Program-made: the position numbers and the translations under genes
Shown here: piece by piece, positions 3,251 to 15,608 of the stretch
Layout: every line of letters begins with the position of its first letter
How positions within the stretch are numbered: the first letter of the stretch is position 1
Assembly: GCF_027924145.1 (NCBI RefSeq)
Contig: NZ_BRVP01000002.1
Location: forward strand, 186,001-250,000
Direction of reading: 5' to 3'
DNA length: 64,000 nucleotides
From: Neptunitalea chrysea
GTDB taxonomy: Bacteria; Bacteroidota; Bacteroidia; Flavobacteriales; Flavobacteriaceae
The notes under the pieces: model-generated
Seen by the model: only the letters and a program-made list of their open reading frames with translations
The model's database searches: none
Told to the model about the DNA's origin: nothing

Positions 3251-5212
3251 TTAGTTTTTATACCATTCCAATTCTGAGGTACCACTTGAATTAACCCATG
3301 TTTTAAATGATGGATATGTTTCAGTAATTGGTGTCTTCTCTGCAGAAGGTGTAAATACATCAAATATGTTTAATGCCCAAGGTAAATTTTGTGTTGTTTT
3401 ATAATATCTACCTGTAGAGGCATCACTATCATCGTCACTTGTTCCTAAGCTCTGAGCTTTACTTGTAGGCTCAAGATCTGGAAGATGCACTTCTCTTGTA
3501 CGGTCTCCGTTAACAATTAAAAATGTATTGTATGGTGCCACCCCTAAGTTACTAATTGTAATTGGAGTATTAAAATTAACTGTTACAGTTATAGTATCAC
3601 CGGTTTTATTTAAAACATTACCAGAAACATAGATTACAGTTTCGTTAGCAGCCGTACCAGATTCGGTTCCATTGGAAGCTGTTGTTTCATATCCCCCAGT
3701 TAATTCAGATCCTGTAACACTGGCTACTAATGAAGGGTCTATTGGTAAAACAAAGGCTAAGCCGTTATGGAATGATGCTCCAATGTGTTCAATAGTATAG
3801 CTAGCAGTCATTTCTGTTACTTTATTACTTCCGTTAGTAATTAAATTGTAATGATAACTTGTAACAACATCGTTAAAATCATAGTCACCTTGACTTGGCC
3901 ATAAATCTTCAAAAGCTAATGTTCCTGGTAAATCATTAGCAGGGTAATAGTTATTAAAAGCTTTATTAATATCATCAGGGTATTCGTCTACAGCATCGTT
4001 AATGCCGTCACCATCGGTATCATTTGCGGCAGTTAATACTGCTACGTTTTCATTGGAAATTGCGGTAACCGGATTAGATTTAACATAAAAAACAGCATCA
4101 TTAAAATCGTCATCAGATCCACCAGTACCTCTATATAAGTCTTCAAAACCAAAGATATTTAAATCTCTTGCCGGATCTTGTAATAATACAATATGATCTT
4201 TGTATCCGGTTGCTTCAGGGTTAAAATCTGGATTTGCATAATAGATCTGAGCATAGTTTTTAACATTAAAACCACTCCAGCCATTTGTAACTAAGAACCA
4301 ACTAATGACAGTATTGGCTGGGAAAAATCCTAGATATACGCGGTTACCAGGCACTAAACTACCTCCAGAACCTATCATAGAGCAGTTAGGAAAAACAATA
4401 TTATGCATTTGAATATCATCAGCAGATGTAGGTTCTTGTCCTAAAGTATAGGTGTAAAATCCAAGTGAGTTTCTATAACCGGCTCCTTCAGAAACAAAGG
4501 TAATCCATACTTCCGCATCTTCTACAAGTATAATTTCGGTTTCTTTACCTGCTAAATACTCAGGGTGTGTATTTGGGATTCCTCCATTATGTCCTTCAGG
4601 CAAAGAGCTGTTTATATCATCTAAAAGTGAGTTGTCTAAAGCATCGTTACTTGCCATAGTAGTTGGTTTACCACTGTAGGTATAACTACTTAAATAGTTA
4701 TAAACAACTGTATTTGTACCCTCTACATTTCCCGTTCCCTCAGGAATTGACCCTTTTTGTTGATAAGTTTCAGTATTAATAACTCTTTCAGAGGTTTGGT
4801 CTTGATAATAATTAGCGTAATCAAAAGTAATATTATCACTAGTTAAACCAATTCTAACATCTTTTGTTAATCCAATATAATCTGAATAAATTAGAATACT
4901 ATCGGTTGCAGCACTAACTGTTAGCTCCCTATTAAAAGATTCATTTTCAAATGAAGCTCTACCAATATAAATACTATCTCTTGTTCCTGTTTTTCCGTAA
5001 ATACTAAAAACAGCATTATTCAAAAAATCTGGAACTGATAGGTTTACACTAATTTGCTTGGTAGTTTCATAAGAAAAGCTATCCTCTACATTTAATCCTT
5101 CCATAGGACCATCAGTAACCACATTGTTATCTGTTGTGTCCAATTCTTTCTCTGCACAACCAGCAAAGGCTAATGCTACTACTAAGATTGTTACTTTAAT
5201 TAATGATTTCAT
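3251..5212 (-). CDS. LruC-domain lipoprotein (DUF4114 + LruC), copy 1
   Basis: The 653-residue product begins with a lipoprotein signal peptide ending in AFAGC (Cys19), so it should be lipid-anchored, probably at the outer membrane or surface. Residues about 235-378 match the DUF4114 style (GFYTYTLG, then FEDLYRGTGGSDDDFNDAV). A calcium-binding-like DTDGDGINDAVDEYPDD loop follows at about 398-415. The rest (FEDLWPSQGDYDFNDVV onward) is the LruC domain. It is a close tandem paralogue of the next gene, sharing long identical stretches. Being inside an exopolysaccharide operon, it may bind the polymer or scaffold it at the surface; this role is inference. Confidence 0.9.
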   Translation of the reverse strand: MKSLIKVTILVVALAFAGCAEKELDTTDNNVVTDGPMEGLNVEDSFSYETTKQISVNLSVPDFLNNAVFSIYGKTGTRDSIYIGRASFENESFNRELTVSAATDSILIYSDYIGLTKDVRIGLTSDNITFDYANYYQDQTSERVINTETYQQKGSIPEGTGNVEGTNTVVYNYLSSYTYSGKPTTMASNDALDNSLLDDINSSLPEGHNGGIPNTHPEYLAGKETEIILVEDAEVWITFVSEGAGYRNSLGFYTYTLGQEPTSADDIQMHNIVFPNCSMIGSGGSLVPGNRVYLGFFPANTVISWFLVTNGWSGFNVKNYAQIYYANPDFNPEATGYKDHIVLLQDPARDLNIFGFEDLYRGTGGSDDDFNDAVFYVKSNPVTAISNENVAVLTAANDTDGDGINDAVDEYPDDINKAFNNYYPANDLPGTLAFEDLWPSQGDYDFNDVVTSYHYNLITNGSNKVTEMTASYTIEHIGASFHNGLAFVLPIDPSLVASVTGSELTGGYETTASNGTESGTAANETVIYVSGNVLNKTGDTITVTVNFNTPITISNLGVAPYNTFLIVNGDRTREVHLPDLEPTSKAQSLGTSDDDSDASTGRYYKTTQNLPWALNIFDVFTPSAEKTPITETYPSFKTWVNSSGTSELEWYKN

Positions 5213-5276: not shown

Positions 5277-7229
5277 TTAATTTTCTGGTTCGTTATACCA
5301 TTCTAAATCAGAATTTCCATTTGAATTAGCCCATGTTTTAAACTTAGGATAAGCAACAATGATAGATTTTTTTTCTGATGGATGATTGAATACATTATAA
5401 ATGTTTAATCCCCATGGAAGGTTTTGTGATGTTTTATAGTACCTACCATTTGAAGCATTACTGTCATCATCATCTGTGCCTAAACTAGTGGCACTAGAAG
5501 TAGGGGTATGATCTGGTAAATGGACTTCTCTTGTTCTATCTCCATTCACTATTAAGAATGGATTAAATGGTGCTTCACCTAAATTGTTAATATGAACTGG
5601 TGAACCAAACGTTACAGTAATTGTTATGGTTGTACCTGTTTTGTTAATGGTATTACCGCATACGTATATAATACTCTCATCAGTACTGTTTCCGGTTTCT
5701 GTTCCATTAGCTGCAGTATTTTCATAACCTCCGTTTAAAACACTTCCTGTAACACTAGATACTAAAGCAGGATCTATAGGTAATACAAACGCTAATCCGT
5801 TATGGAAAGATCCTCCAATATTTTGTATCGTATAAGTAGCGGCTAACTCAGATATTTTATTTGCTCCGTTAGCAACTAAATGATAATGATACGTAGCAAC
5901 TAAATCGTTAAAATCATAATCTCCCTGACTTGGCCATAAATCTTCAAAAGCTACAGTACCTGGTACATTTTCAGCAGGGTAATAGTTATCAAATGCTTTA
6001 GTACTATCATTAGGATAATTATCTAAAGTATCGTTAACTCCATCACCATCTGTATCATTCGCTCCGTCTATTACAGCTACCTCATCTGTTTTAATAGCCG
6101 ATGCTGGGTTAGATTTCACATAATATATGGCATCGTTAAAATCGTCATCTGAATTACCCGTACCTCTATATAGATCTTCAAAACCTAGAATGTTAAGATC
6201 TCTAGCAGGGTCATTTAATAATACCATATGATCTTTATACCCAGTAGCTTCTGGATTAAAGGCTGGGTTAGCGTAATATATTTGAGCATTTTCTTTTACA
6301 GTTTTTGAGCTTCTGTCCCATCCGTCTGCAACTAAAAACCAGCTAATTACAGTGTTTTCAGGAAAGTGTCCTAGAGTAACTTGATCACCTGATACTAGCT
6401 TTCCACCAGATTTATGCATTGATGCATTAGGAAACACTACATAATGAGTTGTAATATCATTAACAGAAGTTGGCTCGTTACCTAAAGTATACGTATAGAA
6501 ACCTAGGGTGTTACGATAATCTGCTCCTTCGGCAACAAAAGTTATAGAAACATCAGCTTCTTGTGTTAAAATTATCTCTGTTTCTTTTCCAACTAAAAAG
6601 TCAGGATTATTGGCAGGTACACCACCAGGAACGCTTTCGGGTAATGAGTTATTAATATCATCTAATAATGAAGAAGAGATATCTTCGTGTACAGTAATAT
6701 TTGTTGGTACGCCGTTAGCATTATAATTACTTAAATAGGTAAAGAAGTCAAAAACATCTTTATGATTTAACGAGTTTGAATTAGGACCTAAGGTTTTATT
6801 TACATTACTTTCTGTAAATAATGAAGCATAATCAAAGCTAACCTCATCACCGCTAGCACCAAGACGTATATCTCTAGTTAAACCAATATAATTGGAGTAG
6901 ATTAAAATACTATCGGTTGCAGCACTAATGGTAAGTTCTCTTGTAAAATTACCACTTGTATCAAAATTTGCTTTTCCTATTGCTATGCTATCACTGGTAC
7001 CTGTTTTTCCGTAGATACTAAATACAGCATGTTCTAAAAACTCAGGTACAGATAAGTTTACCGTTAACTGTTTAGTAGTTTCATATGAAAAATCATCGTC
7101 TGCATTAAGTCCTTCCATAGGACCATCAGTAACTAAATTACTGCTAGTAGAATCAAGGTCGTTATCTACACAACTAATTAAAGTAGCTAGAATTAATAAT
7201 AGAAGATTTGAGTTTTTAAATAGTTTCAT
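5277..7229 (-). CDS. LruC-domain lipoprotein (DUF4114 + LruC), copy 2
   Basis: The 650-residue protein has the same order of parts as its neighbour: a signal peptide with lipobox LISC (Cys20), a matching N-terminal block (VTDGPMEGLNADDDFSYETT), a DUF4114-like region with FEDLYRGTGNSDDDFNDA, a DTDGDGVNDTLDNYPND calcium-loop-like segment, then the LruC region (FEDLWPSQGDYDFNDLV) and a conserved GDRTREVHLPD stretch near the end. Differences are spread along the whole length, so the duplication is not very recent and both copies look intact. It lies between a GT2 gene and copy 1 with short gaps, suggesting a shared transcript. Function in the family is not established. Confidence 0.9.
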   Translation of the reverse strand: MKLFKNSNLLLLILATLISCVDNDLDSTSSNLVTDGPMEGLNADDDFSYETTKQLTVNLSVPEFLEHAVFSIYGKTGTSDSIAIGKANFDTSGNFTRELTISAATDSILIYSNYIGLTRDIRLGASGDEVSFDYASLFTESNVNKTLGPNSNSLNHKDVFDFFTYLSNYNANGVPTNITVHEDISSSLLDDINNSLPESVPGGVPANNPDFLVGKETEIILTQEADVSITFVAEGADYRNTLGFYTYTLGNEPTSVNDITTHYVVFPNASMHKSGGKLVSGDQVTLGHFPENTVISWFLVADGWDRSSKTVKENAQIYYANPAFNPEATGYKDHMVLLNDPARDLNILGFEDLYRGTGNSDDDFNDAIYYVKSNPASAIKTDEVAVIDGANDTDGDGVNDTLDNYPNDSTKAFDNYYPAENVPGTVAFEDLWPSQGDYDFNDLVATYHYHLVANGANKISELAATYTIQNIGGSFHNGLAFVLPIDPALVSSVTGSVLNGGYENTAANGTETGNSTDESIIYVCGNTINKTGTTITITVTFGSPVHINNLGEAPFNPFLIVNGDRTREVHLPDHTPTSSATSLGTDDDDSNASNGRYYKTSQNLPWGLNIYNVFNHPSEKKSIIVAYPKFKTWANSNGNSDLEWYNEPEN

Positions 7230-8159: not shown

Positions 8160-9638
8160 TTAATTTTCAATTAATAGTATTTGTTCGTTTTCTTTTTCTT
8201 CTTGTAATTTTTTGTCCCATCTCGGAGCCAGAAAAATGAATGCCATACCTAAGTACATTAATGTGCCTGTAGGGAACTGTCCGAAAACTCCATTCCCATA
8301 GGATGCGGCCATAATCCCTGCCATACCACATGTTAGTGCTGCAATTTGACCTTTAATCCAGTCGTCTCTTATTCTGAACATGACATTGTAAGCCCCTGTA
8401 ACCAGTACAAAAAATAAAATAAACAAATGAAGGTATAAACCTATAATACCCATATCTGCCCAAATAGATACGTACCAGCTATCTGTTGCCGTATTTGCCA
8501 AAAAGGTATAAGGTGTAAATCGCTGCCCCCAGTTACCTGTAGAACCAATACCACCTCCAAAAGGTCTTGAAGCTAAATAATTAGATAGTTTCCGTTGATT
8601 AGCTAACCGAACCTGTAATGATGCATCATTAGGATCAAAAGCTGTTCGCATTCGTCTAATTTGTGCATTGTTATTCATAATGGTGGTATGCGCAAAAAAT
8701 ACATAAACCCCAATTCCCATAATTGCACCTGCAATTAGTACCGGAATATTTTTTCTAAGTATTAAGTACATAATACCCCCCATAGCCGGTACTGCAATAG
8801 CTCCTCTTGTTCCTGAAATTAGCATACCATAAATACCTGTAATAGCAACAATGATGTAAAATAACTTACGTTTAAAATTATTTTTTGTATAAATTGCTAA
8901 TACTCCAAATACAACCCCAGCATGACCTTGTGAAGCTCCAAACTGACCTGCATCTGAATAAAAACTAAAGATTCTTAGTTTTCCAAATAATATATGTGTT
9001 ACATTAGCTCCAGCATCTAACCAGCGTTGTTCAAAAGGATCTACCCCTATAAACAACTGTTGCATACCTTTTAATGTGCCCAAAAGTGAAAGAACGCCCC
9101 AAATAGTAAATACTAAATGTAAATCTTTGGGTTTGTTGAATAAGATAAAAACTAATGGAATTAACAATAATTGATATAGCGCAAATCCTCTCATTGCATA
9201 AAACCAAGCTGCTCTACTTACAACTTCGGGATTTACTAGTTCTAAAAAAGCATATCCCATCCAAATTGCTGCCAGAAGTGTCAACTGTGATTTAGCATCG
9301 TTCCAGTTAATTTTTCTCTTAAACGATGTAAAGAAAAGCGATAAATACATTAAAAATAGTAAACCATCGACGAGTAGCCCCCATGTGGCGGTCAAATAAC
9401 GGGATAGACCGATAACAAAAAAACTGAATATTAAAATAGTGATAATTCCAATCTTTGGATTTAGTAAAACTGCTGCTAAATAAATGATAGCCAGAGGTAA
9501 TATAATAAAAGCCATAGCCACCATTAGCCCTTTACTGGCTGTTAATAAGCCAATACAAACAGCAATACTTACCAAGATGGTAATAGGTATTGGTTTCTTT
9601 AAAAGATCTGGGCCATATGTACGTTCAAATGCGTTCAA
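8160..9638 (-). CDS. O-antigen ligase/polymerase family (Wzy-like) membrane protein
   Basis: The 492-residue protein is almost entirely hydrophobic, with roughly ten to twelve predicted membrane segments and a large extracytoplasmic loop around residues 320-385. That loop contains RMRTAFDPNDASLQVRLANQ and FGGGIGSTGNWG, in the manner of the Wzy_C/O-antigen ligase family. Such proteins polymerise lipid-linked repeat units, or ligate polymer to an acceptor, at the periplasmic face. Because flippase and chain-length genes flank it, a Wzy polymerase role is the simplest reading. Its start overlaps the end of the flippase gene by 4 bases. Confidence 0.85.
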   Translation of the reverse strand: MNAFERTYGPDLLKKPIPITILVSIAVCIGLLTASKGLMVAMAFIILPLAIIYLAAVLLNPKIGIITILIFSFFVIGLSRYLTATWGLLVDGLLFLMYLSLFFTSFKRKINWNDAKSQLTLLAAIWMGYAFLELVNPEVVSRAAWFYAMRGFALYQLLLIPLVFILFNKPKDLHLVFTIWGVLSLLGTLKGMQQLFIGVDPFEQRWLDAGANVTHILFGKLRIFSFYSDAGQFGASQGHAGVVFGVLAIYTKNNFKRKLFYIIVAITGIYGMLISGTRGAIAVPAMGGIMYLILRKNIPVLIAGAIMGIGVYVFFAHTTIMNNNAQIRRMRTAFDPNDASLQVRLANQRKLSNYLASRPFGGGIGSTGNWGQRFTPYTFLANTATDSWYVSIWADMGIIGLYLHLFILFFVLVTGAYNVMFRIRDDWIKGQIAALTCGMAGIMAASYGNGVFGQFPTGTLMYLGMAFIFLAPRWDKKLQEEKENEQILLIEN

Positions 9639-10981
9639 TTAGCAAAGTGTGATTTAATGTTTTTAAAAAACTGAATACTTTCAGGAAGTATATACCTGAA
9701 TTTTATTTGCATTTCGTGCTTCAAATAATAGAATCCCATGGAAATACCTATTAGTGTAAATAATACTGTTCCGATGGCCACTAATTCCAGAGAGTTGAAT
9801 GCAAAAACAGCTATAAAGTTTACAACAACATTGGCTATTGTCATTACTATAACCTTTATCATATTTAGTTTAGGTTTGTTAATGCTATCTAATAATACAC
9901 CACAGAATCTATCTACCGGAAGTAAAACTGTATAAACAGTAAAAATTCTGAAGACCACAATTAGTTGATCAATTTGATCTGCATAGCCTTTACCGCCAAG
10001 GAAGATAATTAAGAACTTAGCCATCATAAAACAAACAATGGCGATTGGAATAAAAATTAGCGTAATAGCTCCTGAGTATGCGTAGAACGTTTTTCTTGCT
10101 CCGTCCATATCACCTTGAAGCACTTTTTTAGACATTTTAGGATATGCAGTCATTGTTAAACTGCGTAACGGGATCCCTAACATGTCTGTTAGTTTTAAGG
10201 GGATAGCATACATGGCTATGGCAGAGGCTCCCATTACCGGACTTAACCCGATAATAAAAGTGTCTGCACTCTTTAGTAAGCTACTACCAATAAGGGTACC
10301 CATTGAGTATTTACCGAAATGAACAAGTTCTGAAACCGTTTCTTTATCTTGGTGTCTTAAGTATCTTAAACCATCCCATTTTTTAGAAATACACCAAATA
10401 CTAGAGAGTAGGTTAGTACTTAAAAACATACCAATAATATAATTAGAGCCGAGATTAAAAAAGAAATAATTAAACGCGAGAAAAACAGTGAAAATACCAA
10501 TGTTTGATAATTTTACGTACATCATGCGTTTAAAATTTTGCTGCGCCTGAAAAAGGGAGCACGCATTATTCCAGCTCATATTAAAAAGTCCAAGTATAGG
10601 ATACCATATCAAAAAGAGACCATACCCGTTGGTGTTTTCTACTGAAAAAATATGTAATATTCCATAAGTACTATAACAAACAATAGCGATGATTGCTATA
10701 AGCACAAGATTTATCTTGTAACTAGAACCTAGTAAAGTTTTAACTCTTTCTGATGAAGCACCCGATAGTAAACGTACCGTAGAAGTATTTGTCATACCAA
10801 AACGTAATAGGTCTACAAAAGAAGCCAGAGTTAAGAATAAAATCCACTCACCAAAGAAATTTTTATCCAATTGTCTGGCTAATAGCATAAAGGATAGAAG
10901 CCCTAGTGCCGCTACAGAAATGTTGGCAAATAAAGAAGCAAAGTTCTTTTCTCTTTTTATTTTAACCAGTTTGTTTAGCAT
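9635..10981 (-). CDS. Polysaccharide flippase, Wzx/MATE-like
   Basis: The 448-residue protein has about twelve to fourteen membrane helices and the start of an oligosaccharide flippase (KNFASLFANISVAALGLLSF, then LARQLDKNFFGEWILF). Wzx proteins move undecaprenyl-linked oligosaccharide units across the inner membrane for Wzy-dependent polymerisation. The gene shares one base with the end of the chain-length gene (stop/start at 10981) and overlaps the polymerase gene by 4 bases, so the three are tightly coupled. Length is normal for the family. Confidence 0.88.
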   Translation of the reverse strand: MLNKLVKIKREKNFASLFANISVAALGLLSFMLLARQLDKNFFGEWILFLTLASFVDLLRFGMTNTSTVRLLSGASSERVKTLLGSSYKINLVLIAIIAIVCYSTYGILHIFSVENTNGYGLFLIWYPILGLFNMSWNNACSLFQAQQNFKRMMYVKLSNIGIFTVFLAFNYFFFNLGSNYIIGMFLSTNLLSSIWCISKKWDGLRYLRHQDKETVSELVHFGKYSMGTLIGSSLLKSADTFIIGLSPVMGASAIAMYAIPLKLTDMLGIPLRSLTMTAYPKMSKKVLQGDMDGARKTFYAYSGAITLIFIPIAIVCFMMAKFLIIFLGGKGYADQIDQLIVVFRIFTVYTVLLPVDRFCGVLLDSINKPKLNMIKVIVMTIANVVVNFIAVFAFNSLELVAIGTVLFTLIGISMGFYYLKHEMQIKFRYILPESIQFFKNIKSHFAN

Positions 10982-13212
10982 TACAATATAGATGATTTAG
11001 TAAAAAAACGCATTTGGATTAGACGTTTTACCCCTCTTCTAAATCTTGATCGATCTTTAGGTAAGTCGCCTAAAACTGCTTCCATTTCAATAGGTTTAAC
11101 TCCGTTAAGAATAATAGTTGGCTCTGGACCCGTAGTAGCATCATTAAAAAGCTTTAAGGCATTCATATCTGCATCGGACCAAGAACGATTGGCTCTTACT
11201 ACTAAAAATGTATAGTCTACTACAGTAGCTAACTTAACAGGGAATGGATGCTTAATAATTGATGGTAGTTCTAAAATGATAAAATCAAAATCATCAAACG
11301 ATTTTAAAGTTCCATCACGATCAAATTCATCTATACTGGCAATTTTATACAGATGATCTCCAATGGTATAGGTAAGCTTTTTATATTTTTTAGTGTATTC
11401 AACACCCAAATCTTTAGTATCGTCGGTAATGTGTAAAATTTTATAATCAAGTTCGCACAACTTACTAATTAGGTGTTTACAAATAAACGTTTTTCCTTCA
11501 CCATTCTGAGTAGAGAAAAGCATGTTTACAACAGGCTTACCAGACTCATGCTTAAATTGATTTAGAATAATATTTCTGGAGATAGCAATAACAGCTTTAT
11601 TTTTTAAGTATTCAAAATCGATCTTTTTAGACTTAGTGTTTATTACAGGAAATATAGAGCTAACTTTCAATCCAATTTTCTCTTCAGCACGTTCTGCAGT
11701 ATTAATATTATTATCTAATAATGCTAAAATTAAAATGGTAGATGCTACAAGTACAAATCCCATAATACCAGCTACGGCAACTAAAATGAGTCGTTTACTC
11801 GGATTTGCCTCAATAGGAAAATTAGGTATTTCAGATATTTTAATATTGGTTTGTAATTCGGCATTTTGTTGTTTTAACTTCGCTAATCCTAAGCTGTGTA
11901 ATAAGCTGAGATATTCCTGCTCTGCAATGTTTATTTTTCTTTCCAGACGTTTCATAGTTGCACCAAGTGGTGCAAACTGAGCATAAATCTGATCAAACTC
12001 TAAACGTTTTTCATCTAATACTTTTAATTCAGCTTTTGAACTTTCATACTGAATTGTATTATCTAACCATTCTTCCAGAATAGGGGTAGAGCCAACTCCT
12101 TCCGTTGTATGATCTATATTGAATACAGTATCTAGAGATTTGGTTAATTGAAGTTTAACATCAGATAGTTCGCTTTTTAACTTAAGAACTTCATCTTTAT
12201 TTTCTTCACGTTGAAGAGAATCTAAAACAGAAGAAGTAAGCATTACAATATCAAAATTTAGCTTACTCATTTTATCTCTTAACTCAAGTACTTTTTTACT
12301 ATTTACATGTCTTTTACCGTAGGTGTTAAGCTTTTGTTCAAGTTCATCTAAAACAGCTTGAGAACCATAATAAAGCTGGGTAACTCGGCGAACTTCCATC
12401 TCAAATAGCTCTTTTCTAGCAGCAATTTGTTTGGTTTGCTCATAGTAGTTCATCAACTTATTATTCTTGTTGAAGTTTAATAATTCGGCTTCAGATTCCT
12501 TTAATCGTTCGGTACTACTCTTAAGTTCTTTTTTAAAATAGTTTACAACTTCATCAGACTGATTTACTTTCATGGTCTGATTTAGTTTTATAAATGTATG
12601 TGTTAAAATAAGTAGTGTGTTTTGACAAACTCCGGGATCGTCAGACTGAAAACTGATATCGACAAAATCACTAGACAATACTCTTTTTACAGAGATACGA
12701 CCCATAATTTTTTCGTAGCTATAATCTGGATGATTTAAGTTAATTAACTCATATATAAAGTTGTATGGATCTTTGTTTTTGTATTCTAAAAAATTAGCAT
12801 AGGTAGTATCATAGTCTCCTTTTACAACCAGATCCTTTACTTCCTTTGGAACAATTTTCATGAGCTCAGCATACTTTTCTTTACCAATAATACGATCATC
12901 CGGACCATCTAAAAGCATGTGTTGTGTAAATAATCTTAGAGAAACTTCTTCTAAAGTAGCTCTAGAACGTATTAAATTTAAAAGGTTATCATAAGCTATG
13001 TTTGTTTTATTTATTTCAAGTCTGGTATTTTCAAGTTCTATGGTAGAACCCGATGCAAAACCTGTATAAATTCTGGTTTTAGAATCATAAACCTTAGGTT
13101 GCCCTTTAGTTAAGAAGAAAACAAGAATAACTAATAGGATAGGTATTCCCATTAGTAATGTAACATGTCTCAATAATATGCGTACAAAAAAAAGTAAATT
13201 GAACTTTACCAT
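10981..13212 (-). CDS. Wzz/Wzc-like polysaccharide co-polymerase with degenerate tyrosine-kinase-type ATPase domain
   Basis: The 743-residue product has two membrane segments (about 13-34 and 475-499) bracketing a long periplasmic, partly coiled-coil region (about 225-460). The GNVR/Wzz-like segment FPIEANPSKR precedes the second helix. A cytosolic P-loop domain follows, with a recognisable Walker A (STQNGEGKT, 567-575). The other hallmarks of bacterial tyrosine kinases are altered: the A' motif reads HITDDTKDLG (about 594-603) instead of an IDxDxR type, and the Walker B region reads IILELPS (about 646-651) with Glu in place of the usual Asp. There is no C-terminal tyrosine cluster. It probably controls chain length and transport, but autophosphorylation is doubtful. 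Confidence 0.85.
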   Translation of the reverse strand: MVKFNLLFFVRILLRHVTLLMGIPILLVILVFFLTKGQPKVYDSKTRIYTGFASGSTIELENTRLEINKTNIAYDNLLNLIRSRATLEEVSLRLFTQHMLLDGPDDRIIGKEKYAELMKIVPKEVKDLVVKGDYDTTYANFLEYKNKDPYNFIYELINLNHPDYSYEKIMGRISVKRVLSSDFVDISFQSDDPGVCQNTLLILTHTFIKLNQTMKVNQSDEVVNYFKKELKSSTERLKESEAELLNFNKNNKLMNYYEQTKQIAARKELFEMEVRRVTQLYYGSQAVLDELEQKLNTYGKRHVNSKKVLELRDKMSKLNFDIVMLTSSVLDSLQREENKDEVLKLKSELSDVKLQLTKSLDTVFNIDHTTEGVGSTPILEEWLDNTIQYESSKAELKVLDEKRLEFDQIYAQFAPLGATMKRLERKINIAEQEYLSLLHSLGLAKLKQQNAELQTNIKISEIPNFPIEANPSKRLILVAVAGIMGFVLVASTILILALLDNNINTAERAEEKIGLKVSSIFPVINTKSKKIDFEYLKNKAVIAISRNIILNQFKHESGKPVVNMLFSTQNGEGKTFICKHLISKLCELDYKILHITDDTKDLGVEYTKKYKKLTYTIGDHLYKIASIDEFDRDGTLKSFDDFDFIILELPSIIKHPFPVKLATVVDYTFLVVRANRSWSDADMNALKLFNDATTGPEPTIILNGVKPIEMEAVLGDLPKDRSRFRRGVKRLIQMRFFTKSSIL

Positions 13213-13223
13213 TTGCTTTAAAT

Positions 13224-14015
13224 TTATTCTTGTTCTATTAAATTATTATTTAATTTGATTTCTACCCCTACAGTATTTTCTAAATACATGAAAGCTAGTA
13301 GAAATTCAGCTCTGTTTTTTTCAAATTCTTTAAAGGCATCATTCATTTGCTGTTGTAATCTGGTATATTCAGATAAAGGGATTAATCCGTTTTCATAATC
13401 AGACTCAGCACGCATAGACTGCACCTTATAAGTATCAATAATGGTATTTGAAACAAGCATTAATCTATGAGCCCGTAAAACATCATTATAATCTAAAATT
13501 AGTTTTCGCTCAATTTCAATCATCGATACTTGCTTTTGATATTGTGCTCTTTCCTGAAGCGTCTTTTCTGCATGTACGTTTTTCTTACGGTTAAAAAAGG
13601 CTGCCAAAGGTATTTTAAGCGACATACCAACAGTATATCTAGAGGTTTCTGTATTAATTAAGCTTTCATTTGCCTGGGCTACTCCCGTAAGTTGCTCACT
13701 ACTTAAATAACCATACATACCGTAATTATATACACCTTCTAAGTAGATATATTTTAACCATTCTGCTCTAGCTAGTCTTACGTTTACTTTATAATATTCA
13801 ATATTAGCTTGGTCATATTTTAATAAAGGAGAATTTTTCCGAGTCCATGCCTTTAGCGTATCTAACGGAGGTAATTTTTTACTAAAATCGGTTTCTTCTA
13901 AACTTTTGGTAATAAAATATTCTACATCCTGACTATGAGCAGTTTTATAGGAAAAAAGGACAAATGGAAAAATAAGTAGTGTTAAGAATTTATTTATTGT
14001 ATTAATTTTAATCAT
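13224..14015 (-). CDS. Short TolC-family outer membrane protein
   Basis: The 263-residue product has a signal peptide (about 1-28, ending near AHSQ) and the heptad-rich helical pattern and inter-repeat strands of outer membrane efflux proteins, e.g. YTVGMSLKIPLAAFFNRKKNV and a terminal pair of long helices. It is about half the length of classical TolC, which carries two OEP repeats, so it has roughly one repeat. It occupies the place where a Wza-type export protein would be expected next to the Wzc-like gene, and may form part of the export channel; this is inference. Its start overlaps the sugar transferase stop by 4 bases. Confidence 0.75.
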   Translation of the reverse strand: MIKINTINKFLTLLIFPFVLFSYKTAHSQDVEYFITKSLEETDFSKKLPPLDTLKAWTRKNSPLLKYDQANIEYYKVNVRLARAEWLKYIYLEGVYNYGMYGYLSSEQLTGVAQANESLINTETSRYTVGMSLKIPLAAFFNRKKNVHAEKTLQERAQYQKQVSMIEIERKLILDYNDVLRAHRLMLVSNTIIDTYKVQSMRAESDYENGLIPLSEYTRLQQQMNDAFKEFEKNRAEFLLAFMYLENTVGVEIKLNNNLIEQE

Positions 14016-15214
14016 ACATTCTCTTTTTGAAAAACCGCTCTAAAGGTTCTAATAATAATCCACATGTCTTTCCAAAATGAAAATTTGTGGTTAGCATACT
14101 CAACATACTTATTATCCAGTTCTTTACGTTCTTGTGGAGACATTTTAGAACTCCTACCTCTAGCTTCCACTTGCCATAGTCCGGTAATCCCTGCAGGACC
14201 GTTAAAACGCTGTGTCCATTCATCAGTAGTTAATAATTCTGCTTCGTACAAAGGTAATGGTCTATTACCAACAATAGACATATCTCCTTTTAAAACATTG
14301 ATAAGCTGAGGCAATTCATCAATACTTAATTTTCTGATAATTTTACCCACTTTTGTAATTCTAGGGTCATTGTCAAACTTGATGAATGCATTAGCATTTT
14401 CCTCAAATTTAGATTGAATATATGCTGTTTCACTTATTTCTTCATCATCGCTAAAAAGCATCACATCGTTTTCTTTTGATTTAGAAGTAATGGTTGTAAT
14501 TTCATCCTCTTCAGTATTTTCAACGTTATCTGTACCAACGTATTGATTTAAATGTAAAAACTCTTTCAATCTTTGATCTGCATCGGGGTACATAGATCGT
14601 AGCTTATAAAAGTCAAAAATTTTGTATCCGCTTCCCACACGTTTAGAAATGTAATATACTTTTCCTTTAGACTCTAATCTTATAGCTATAATAGTTAGTA
14701 GTAATAGCGGAGTAGCACAAAGCAATGCAAAGCCAGCAACTACAATATCAAACAATCTTTTAAAAGGTTTTGGTTTATAGGTTGTATGCTCTTTAACTAA
14801 TTCGGTATTTATTTCGGTTGAGTTTTGTTTTAAATACCTTAAAAACTCAATTCGTTTTAAAATGTGATTAATATTTATAGGCTTATGATAACAATCATCT
14901 ATACCGTCTTCTAAAGATTGTTTAATTATTTTATCATTTATTTCATCAGATACTAAGATAAATACAATTGTTTTTGCTTTGTCGTAAATCTTTAAATAAT
15001 TGTTATAGAAAGAACTACCGCTTTGTCCGGGTAATTTATTTTCGCAAATAATAGCATCTACCTCATGTAACTCATCTAATACTAATGAAGCGTCATACCC
15101 ACTTTTAAAAACTTTTAAATTAATAGTATTATTTACAGCCTTTAGACCCTCTACTAAATGATTATCGTCTCCTATATATAGTAAAGTTATTTTAGAAGTA
15201 TTTTTTGTGTTCAT
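14012..15214 (-). CDS. Receiver-like domain fused to a polyprenyl-phosphate sugar-phosphate transferase
   Basis: The 400-residue product joins two modules. Residues about 8-127 form a response-regulator receiver fold: acidic pair Asp16-Asp17, Ser89 and Lys111 are conserved. The phosphoacceptor position (IICENKLPG) carries Glu58 where Asp is expected. Residues about 150-400 are a bacterial sugar transferase of the WbaP/WcaJ type: KRLFD (152-156), a membrane hairpin segment, YKLRSM, an acidic insertion of about 60 residues, then KLSIDELPQLINVLKGDMSI, VGNRPLP and GITGLWQVEARG. The enzyme starts the repeat unit by moving a hexose-1-phosphate to undecaprenyl phosphate. A phosphomimetic regulatory domain is inferred, not shown. 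Confidence 0.9.
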   Translation of the reverse strand: MNTKNTSKITLLYIGDDNHLVEGLKAVNNTINLKVFKSGYDASLVLDELHEVDAIICENKLPGQSGSSFYNNYLKIYDKAKTIVFILVSDEINDKIIKQSLEDGIDDCYHKPININHILKRIEFLRYLKQNSTEINTELVKEHTTYKPKPFKRLFDIVVAGFALLCATPLLLLTIIAIRLESKGKVYYISKRVGSGYKIFDFYKLRSMYPDADQRLKEFLHLNQYVGTDNVENTEEDEITTITSKSKENDVMLFSDDEEISETAYIQSKFEENANAFIKFDNDPRITKVGKIIRKLSIDELPQLINVLKGDMSIVGNRPLPLYEAELLTTDEWTQRFNGPAGITGLWQVEARGRSSKMSPQERKELDNKYVEYANHKFSFWKDMWIIIRTFRAVFQKENV

Positions 15215-15230
15215 TGGGAGTGCCTAGTGT

Positions 15231-15608
15231 TTACTGGTTAGTATTTTCTAAAATATTCTCGATACGAATTAATAATTCTTCAGGATTAAATGGTTTTACC
15301 ATATAATCTACTGCACCGGCTTTTAAGCATTCTATACGATCTTTACTACTACTTTTGCAGCTTAGTACCATAACAGGAATTTCAGAAAAGAAACCACTCT
15401 GTTTCACCTGATCAATAAATTCTAATCCTCCCATTTTGGGCATCTGTAAATCTGTAATAATTAAATCGGGTACATTTGATTGTTGTAACCAAGCCAAGGC
15501 TTCAATACCATTACTTTTAGTGGTAACATCGTAGGAGCTACTTAAAAATTGAGCTACTAAGTCACTTAAAGTCTCTTTATCATCAATTACAAGTATTTTC
15601 ATATTCAT
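15231..15608 (-). CDS. Stand-alone CheY-like response regulator
   Basis: The 125-residue product is a complete receiver domain with no output domain. Asp9-Asp10 form the acidic pair, Asp53 in TDLQMP is the phosphoacceptor, Ser83 and Lys105 (VKPF) complete the active site. It is the first gene of the exopolysaccharide operon, 16 bases before the receiver-sugar transferase fusion, so phosphorylation from an unlinked kinase could gate polymer synthesis through protein contacts. No histidine kinase is encoded in the window. Two in-frame ATGs (15608 and 15602) are both possible starts. Confidence 0.93.
   Translation of the reverse strand: MNMKILVIDDKETLSDLVAQFLSSSYDVTTKSNGIEALAWLQQSNVPDLIITDLQMPKMGGLEFIDQVKQSGFFSEIPVMVLSCKSSSKDRIECLKAGAVDYMVKPFNPEELLIRIENILENTNQ

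Follow-up and report, generated by a model that had tools for sequence, protein, structure and literature searches.

A single-domain receiver encoded beside a receiver-like phosphoglycosyl transferase fusion in Neptunitalea chrysea and other Bacteroidota

The two genes and the receiver-like domain of the fusion

The 64,000-nucleotide stretch of the genome of the flavobacterium Neptunitalea chrysea analysed in this study (NCBI RefSeq assembly GCF_027924145.1, contig NZ_BRVP01000002.1, positions 186,001 to 250,000 of the forward strand), which is referred to as the window, contains two neighbouring genes on its reverse strand. The first codes for a CheY-like single-domain response regulator and the second, whose open reading frame follows after 16 nucleotides, for a protein in which a receiver-like domain precedes the catalytic domain of a small monotopic phosphoglycosyl transferase (PGT). 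The same pair recurs across Bacteroidota, with a canonical phosphorylation pocket in nearly all of the stand-alone receivers and a complete pocket in none of the fused domains. A sequence-only reading of the window had already described a receiver-sugar transferase fusion beside a normal CheY-like protein, which is confirmed by the open reading frames and their Pfam matches. The features of the two genes are as follows.

15231..15608, reverse strand: CheY-like single-domain response regulator of 125 amino acids (Pfam Response_reg, 98.3 bits)
15452-15450, reverse strand: codon of Asp53 of this regulator, whose pocket is canonical (Asp9/Asp10, Asp53, Ser83, Lys105 and Phe at position K+2), with conservation of the pocket columns among the partners from 76 loci
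14012..15214, reverse strand: fusion of a predicted pseudo-receiver with a small monotopic PGT, 400 amino acids (Pfam Response_reg and Bac_transf)
14822..15190, reverse strand: predicted pseudo-receiver domain (residues 9-131) with a (beta-alpha)5 fold (predicted local distance difference test, pLDDT, of about 76-88 for the receiver part of the AlphaFold2 model; best Foldseek matches are receivers)
15041..15043, reverse strand: codon of Glu58, at the phosphoacceptor position and the end of beta3 (alignment, AlphaFold2 model)
14948..14950, reverse strand: codon of Ser89, at the T/S position and the end of beta4, kept in the window (Ser in 1/15 and Thr in 0/15 members of its clade)
14882..14884, reverse strand: codon of Lys111, at the conserved Lys position (in the clade Lys 10/15, His 3, Gln 2)
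14027..14761, reverse strand: PGT catalytic domain (residues 152-396, Pfam), with Asp299-Glu300 in a DELPQ motif
14390..14569, reverse strand: acidic insert of about 60 residues in the PGT domain (about residues 216-275), recognised by alignment and from 245 residues covering 179 profile positions

The enzymatic part of the fusion matches Bac_transf with 183 bits (residues 152-396, cut-off 27), and it carries the Asp-Glu motif that accompanies this domain in small monotopic PGTs; Asp299 and Glu300, which we take to be the catalytic dyad, are invariant in 23 alignment rows. The features of large monotopic PGTs are absent, as there is no Pfam match to PF13727 at an E-value of 0.001, and as the fusion reaches 226.8 bits with the NCBIfam model TIGR03025 (cut-off 295.55) and scores far below the cut-offs of the WbaP and WcaJ models. 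The sequence matches of the catalytic domain include the PDB entries 8e37 and 8g1n, presumably both PglC-type PGTs.

The N-terminal part of the fusion matches Response_reg between residues 14 and 123 with 32.7 bits (cut-off 30.2), which makes it the weakest of the 41 receiver matches in the genome, eight of which are single-domain receivers (open frame of at most 141 amino acids). It has the (beta-alpha)5 fold of a receiver according to this match, to an AlphaFold2 model built from 11 rows and to Foldseek, where the 50 best PDB matches listed are all receiver domains or receiver-containing proteins; the mean pLDDT of the whole model is 55, and its PGT half, which is of low confidence, was not used. 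Glu58 aligns with Asp53 of the CheY-like neighbour and resides at the end of beta3 (54-58) in the model, with residue 89 at the end of beta4 (84-89) and residue 111 just after beta5 (107-110). The earlier placement of a Glu at the phosphoacceptor site thus stands in both the alignment and the structure prediction. The accompanying claim that the remaining pocket is kept holds in part: Ser89, Lys111 and Asp16, which is opposite to the second residue of the acidic pair, are in place, but Asp17 lies one position beyond the pair and Gly15 stands at its first position, for which reason we regard the pocket of the window protein, as read from the alignment, as largely and not fully retained. With Glu58 and Gly15 the domain thus shares the attributes of aspartate-less receivers and pseudo-receivers, where either the phosphoacceptor Asp or other key residues of the pocket are missing.

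Position 58 and the pocket across the family

Relatives of the fusion were collected by sequence searches in which flanking genes were not part of the queries. When searched with the fusion protein, 19 of 397 genomes of the family had a match at 1e-40, whereas a 23-row profile gave matches in 60 of 395 genomes of the class at 1e-50 and in 31 of 395 genomes of the phylum at 1e-80, the own genome being included each time and fused and unfused proteins being counted together in the two profile searches; an additional single scan of genome contigs yielded 10 loci. The resulting 77 fusions, all from Bacteroidota, comprise 69 retrieved stretches, the seven loci L029-L035 and the window, with L027 and L028 left out as repeats of two members and L036 as unfused. 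No two of them share an identical catalytic domain, although the loci are related and not independent (five are from Marinifilum). In a tree of 90 rows calculated by a quick method from the catalytic domains alone, the window falls into a supported clade of 15 fusions (97*), which is represented in column comparisons by 12 members (two of the five from Marinifilum and ten others). At the place of the insert in the PGT domain, a pattern of four cysteines resembling a zinc knuckle is seen in 21 of the 77 fusions and, among unfused relatives, in at least L036 and L177, and the window's clade shows an acidic stretch without this pattern.

The residue at position 58 is variable throughout the family, with Glu in 28 of the 77 fusions, Asp in 14, Asn in 7, Tyr in 7, Gln in 4 and another residue or a gap in 17, Lys and Arg being among the residues found, and its state (Glu, Asp or other) has changed at least 17 times on the tree. 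In the window's clade, Glu58 is present in 15/15 members and constitutes, together with Gly15 and Asp53, one of only 3 invariant columns among the 122 receiver columns of the 12 representatives of the fusion, so that it looks to have been selected within this clade. A sequencing error at this codon is rejected by the agreement of all clade members.

A complete receiver pocket is found in 0/77 fusions, and the 14 proteins with Asp58 include none that keeps both the Ser/Thr and the Lys, which is why the domain is best described, on the strength of its pocket residues, as a predicted pseudo-receiver. The same numbers bear on the idea that the fused receiver is still phosphorylated, either on another residue or in the members that have kept the Asp, and works like a normal response regulator whose output happens to be an enzyme. 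While the persistence of Asp58 in some members is in its favour, we consider it very improbable in light of the universal loss of the pocket, and an ordinary enzyme-linked response regulator was rejected as a description of the family.

A different role of position 58 had been proposed in the sequence-only reading, according to which Glu58 may mimic the phosphorylated state and lock the enzyme in an on-form. In this mechanism Glu58 would reach Ser89 and Lys111 as a phosphorylated Asp does, and the receiver, and with it the enzyme, would permanently remain in an on-state. Such a mechanism could operate in the window protein, where Glu58, Ser89 and Lys111 are all present, and it would be in line with the fixation of Glu58 in the clade and with the role of Glu as a phosphomimetic in many regulators (PMC12632262). 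Lys111 also follows Glu58, being found in 16 of the 28 proteins with this residue compared to 1 of the 49 without it, which favours some contact between the two, although this link is represented by only five independent pairs on well-supported branches, which are too few to test it and place significance out of reach; we have thus rejected the coupling as proof of mimicry. As a general mechanism, however, the proposal is not supported, since Ser/Thr89 is kept in 11 of the 28 Glu58 proteins and both contact residues are kept in 6, and since Ser/Thr89 survives in 1/15 and Lys111 in 10/15 members of the very clade where Glu58 is fixed. Moreover, the pair of genes persists with Tyr, Gln, Lys, Arg, Asn and other residues at position 58, and the constitutive DNA binding of ChxR was not abolished when its Glu was replaced by Asp or Ala (PMC4395418). 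Taken together, these observations make phosphomimicry an improbable explanation for the family.

The partner receiver and the genes around the pair

In contrast to the degenerate pocket of the fusion, that of the neighbouring receiver is preserved. In 75/77 loci a single-domain receiver is encoded directly upstream of the fusion and on its strand, with gaps between -49 and 293 nucleotides (65/77 if overlapping genes are left out). In a control covering the sugar transferases of 12 genomes, where 31 non-fusion matches were listed and 30 loci examined, 24 other sugar transferases from 11 genomes had an adjacent receiver in 0/24 cases within the 633-1491 nucleotides upstream that were examined, and the six fusions that turned out to be among the 30 loci all had one. 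A set of 14 more diverged proteins of 345-390 amino acids, which had matched only with their C-terminus in the class search, was rejected as a negative control: all 14 possess an adjacent single-domain receiver and their N-terminal domains, as a group, match receivers at a profile probability of 98.7%, and we thus count them as relatives.

Including the distant receiver of L110, a full canonical pocket, for which we required the Asp, the Ser/Thr and the Lys together with one or both acids of the pair, is present in 73/76 partners. The difference between the two receivers extends to position K+2, which is a Phe in 75/76 partners, whereas in the fusions it is Ala, Ile, Leu or Val in 43/77 and Phe in 10/77. 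In CheY of Escherichia coli, Phe at this position favours inactive states and Ala, Ile, Leu or Val active ones (PMC12632262), and by this rule the partners would lean towards the inactive form and many of the pseudo-receivers towards the active form. Among 10 representatives of the window's clade, the pseudo-receiver, with a mean pairwise identity of 33%, is less conserved than the partner (69%) and the catalytic domain (76%). The sequence-only reading had assigned the true switch to the neighbour with its intact Asp53. This assignment is strengthened insofar as the neighbour, with its intact and conserved pocket, is the better candidate and as a single-domain regulator acting on a PGT has a published precedent (PMC12802240).

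The pairing with a receiver is not confined to fused enzymes. From the same branch, we identified 12 unfused small PGTs (258-284 amino acids), four of which are preceded by a single-domain receiver at a distance of 22-60 nucleotides, demonstrating that a receiver-PGT pair without a pseudo-receiver also exists. In another explanation of the pair, the degenerate domain is kept for dimerisation or for folding close to the membrane, in place of the domain of unknown function (DUF) of large PGTs, and the receiver is only co-expressed and has its target elsewhere, such as a kinase or transcription. The many atypical response regulators that dimerise without phosphate (PMC12632262), the location of the domain in front of the catalytic core, a place that PF13727 occupies in large PGTs (PMC10942596), and its fast divergence within the clade would be in accordance with such a role. 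It is harder to reconcile with the lack of adjacent receivers at other sugar transferases and with loci such as L115 and L118, where the receiver stays beside the fusion and no polysaccharide operon was found downstream, and the receivers at 4/12 unfused relatives also speak against it, although the latter would also fit a partner that can do without the pseudo-receiver. On balance, we regard this explanation as doubtful.

In the window, the two genes head a polysaccharide operon, whose further members on the same strand are listed below.

13224..14015, reverse strand: short outer-membrane-efflux (TolC)-like protein (Pfam OEP), with a relative downstream on the same strand in 45/77 loci
10981..13212, reverse strand: Wzz/Wzc-like chain-length protein (Pfam Wzz with 20.6 bits, below the cut-off of 25.5; NCBIfam chain-length models also below cut-off)
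9635..10981, reverse strand: Wzx-like flippase (Pfam Polysacc_synt)
8160..9638, reverse strand: Wzy-like polymerase or ligase (Pfam Wzy_C)

From these TolC-like, Wzz-like, flippase and polymerase-like genes, we infer a Wzx/Wzy-type polysaccharide locus in which the fusion would serve as initiating PGT. The locus also contains two adjoining large genes (3251-5212 and 5277-7229), each with DUF4114 and DUF4842, the first of which, to which the NCBIfam search was directed, also matches the LruC domain. A Wzz-like relative is found downstream in 50/77 fusion loci, and neither a TolC-like nor a Wzz-like gene was found downstream in 24/77, three of which have less than 4 kb downstream examined. Within this group of 24 loci, 23 keep the adjacent receiver, L035 being the exception, and 7/24 still contain a Wzx- or Wzy-like gene. 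Pfam searches with ten downstream proteins, each from a different one of these loci, identified glycosyltransferases in L141, L153 and L154, the beta-subunit of phenylalanyl-tRNA synthetase in L115 and L118, a hybrid kinase-REC-Hpt protein in L142 and four other proteins. In L115, L118 and L142 the gene concerned is the next large one on the strand of the fusion. The protein in L142 (1432-5766) is a PAS-hybrid kinase of 1445 residues, which contains two receiver stretches as well as an Hpt domain and whose gene begins 235 nucleotides after the fusion. Since the pair is retained next to genes such as that of the tRNA synthetase, it stands in some lineages, although not in all of the 24 loci, without an evident polysaccharide operon.

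The upstream side of the pair is occupied by signalling genes in a minority of the loci. A scan with hidden Markov models built from small seed sets, in which hybrid and partial proteins were included, detected kinase-like genes upstream in 22 of the 77 loci and FIST-like genes in 11, some of them on the other strand. In L100, L102 and L112 the receiver is immediately preceded by a small Hpt gene, and in L123 the same place is taken by a 1547-residue HNOBA-PAS-hybrid kinase-REC-Hpt protein; the Hpt score exceeds the Pfam cut-off in L112 and L123 and remains below it in L100, L102, L092 and L098. In L092-L097, the region before the pair contains FIST, kinase, Hpt, LytTR-type and STAS genes, as judged by Pfam runs on examples, with a STAS-domain gene of 100 amino acids upstream of the receiver found in L092 (5161-5460, by Pfam), L093 (8717-9016) and L094 (7905-8204, both by similarity). 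In L110 (7334-12390), genes for a haem-NO-binding protein, an HNOBA-PAS kinase, a FIST protein and a kinase are located directly upstream of the fusion, and the distant receiver is found at the start of the cluster. A comparable set of genes resides on another contig of the Neptunitalea genome (C17, L213:2116-8326), with a single-domain receiver, a haem-NO-binding protein, a PAS kinase, a FIST protein, a kinase, an Hpt-like protein scoring below cut-off and a LytTR protein, and in some relatives genes of this kind directly adjoin the polysaccharide module. That the cluster on C17 feeds the module in the window is a guess.

Proposed control of the transferase and relation to known systems

Collectively, the presented features have led us to propose that the partner receiver and the pseudo-receiver-PGT fusion act in Bacteroidota as a regulatory module of two genes, with control of the PGT by the phosphorylated partner via the pseudo-receiver, a reading to which we assign a probability of about 0.55. 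In such a module, the stand-alone receiver would be the phosphorylatable switch, and the pseudo-receiver on the PGT, itself taking no phosphate, would be a built-in domain on which the partner docks or acts allosterically. Asp53 of the partner would be phosphorylated by a kinase, in several relatives probably via an Hpt relay, and the phosphorylated protein would then bind the pseudo-receiver and perhaps also the catalytic domain. Through this binding the PGT, which commits undecaprenyl phosphate to the polymer, would change its activity, most likely in the direction of activation. Glu58 would in this module be the fixed feature of one clade, probably setting a phosphate-independent conformation or surface, and not itself the switch. 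The pair might thus work as an on/off switch for polysaccharide production, as suggested by the regular placement of an intact receiver beside the degenerate one.

Several observations weigh against this proposal. The adjacency of the two genes could reflect co-expression without contact between their products. The pairing has exceptions, as L035 shows no partner in the 4.9 kb upstream that were examined and as the nearest single-domain receiver of L110 is 4.9 kb away, and the partners of L151, L154 and L155 contain a Glu instead of the phosphoacceptor Asp found in the other 73. Of the unfused PGTs without an adjacent receiver, 4/12 have one 2.2-2.5 kb upstream and another 4/12 have none in the 1.3-6.0 kb examined. 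Concerning the fused domain, the match of the N-terminal regions of L140, L141 and L145-L147 to the receiver profile is weak (54.8% probability), and of 10 fusions analysed with Pfam four gave no receiver match, making the term pseudo-receiver less certain in these cases; in addition, 14 fusions keep the Asp at position 58. With respect to upstream components, most Hpt matches in the relatives are below the Pfam cut-off, and neither a kinase nor an Hpt gene was found directly beside the module in the window by inspection of open reading frames and Pfam. Finally, the literature searched contained no reports on binding, phosphorylation or activity for the fusion family.

Both Glu-bearing pseudo-receivers and receiver-PGT fusions are already known, the latter being mentioned in the discussion of PMC12802240, which cites O'Toole 2021 for receiver domains fused to small PGTs; as for the former, Glu is the most frequent substitute in aspartate-less receivers (26%, PMC4395418). 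In the open-access literature searched, we did not recognise a report that canonical single-domain receivers and pseudo-receiver-PGTs are paired throughout the phylum. A review from 2025 calls the activation and inactivation of bacterial pseudo-receivers a mystery and names the phosphorylation-dependent pairing with a true receiver as an option (PMC12632262). In the family described here, which is large and occurs naturally, almost all of the enzyme-linked pseudo-receivers have a candidate partner next door, and this pairing idea could thus be tested directly, with sugar-phosphate transfer in vitro as readout. If true, it would help to explain how a polymer that is costly and uses undecaprenyl phosphate is held in check by the cell.

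The closest functional parallel is found in Myxococcus xanthus, where phosphorylated EpsW stimulates the PGT EpsZ, according to the modelling of the authors via a stabilised EpsZ dimer (PMC12802240). Both systems combine a single-domain regulator with an intact Asp and the initiating monotopic PGT of a Wzx/Wzy pathway, and in the present family the regulator is adjacent and canonical in nearly all loci, although an action on the PGT has been shown for EpsW-EpsZ and would here be expected by analogy. Unlike EpsZ, which as a large PGT possesses a transmembrane bundle and a DUF, the enzyme in the window is a small PGT of 400 residues with a pseudo-receiver in their place, and it belongs to Bacteroidota, to which the EpsW-EpsZ idea would extend from myxobacteria if our proposal is correct.

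The second parallel is provided by PleD of Caulobacter, where receiver, pseudo-receiver and diguanylate cyclase follow each other in one chain and where phosphorylation of the receiver alters its interaction with the pseudo-receiver (PMC12632262). The pair shares with PleD an intact receiver, a pseudo-receiver and an enzyme, but in the 76 paired loci the intact receiver has a gene of its own, and a PGT takes the place of the diguanylate cyclase; a single chain containing receiver, pseudo-receiver and PGT was not found among the fusion matches listed, whose open frames extend to 465 amino acids. It is tempting to view the family as a phylum-wide split version of PleD, in which a phosphorylation-dependent complex of receiver and pseudo-receiver gates the first committed step of polysaccharide synthesis, with an Hpt relay in several lineages and haem-NO-sensor kinases in a few, a more far-reaching notion that we hold tentatively and with somewhat less than even expectation. 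At the level of its parts, the fusion resembles aspartate-less receivers and pseudo-receivers in its receiver fold without a full phosphorylation pocket, and it differs from those described in having a PGT as output and in its pairing with a single-domain receiver gene, while its catalytic domain is that of PglC-type small monotopic PGTs (Pfam Bac_transf), from which it is distinguished by the N-terminal pseudo-receiver and the insert of about 60 residues.

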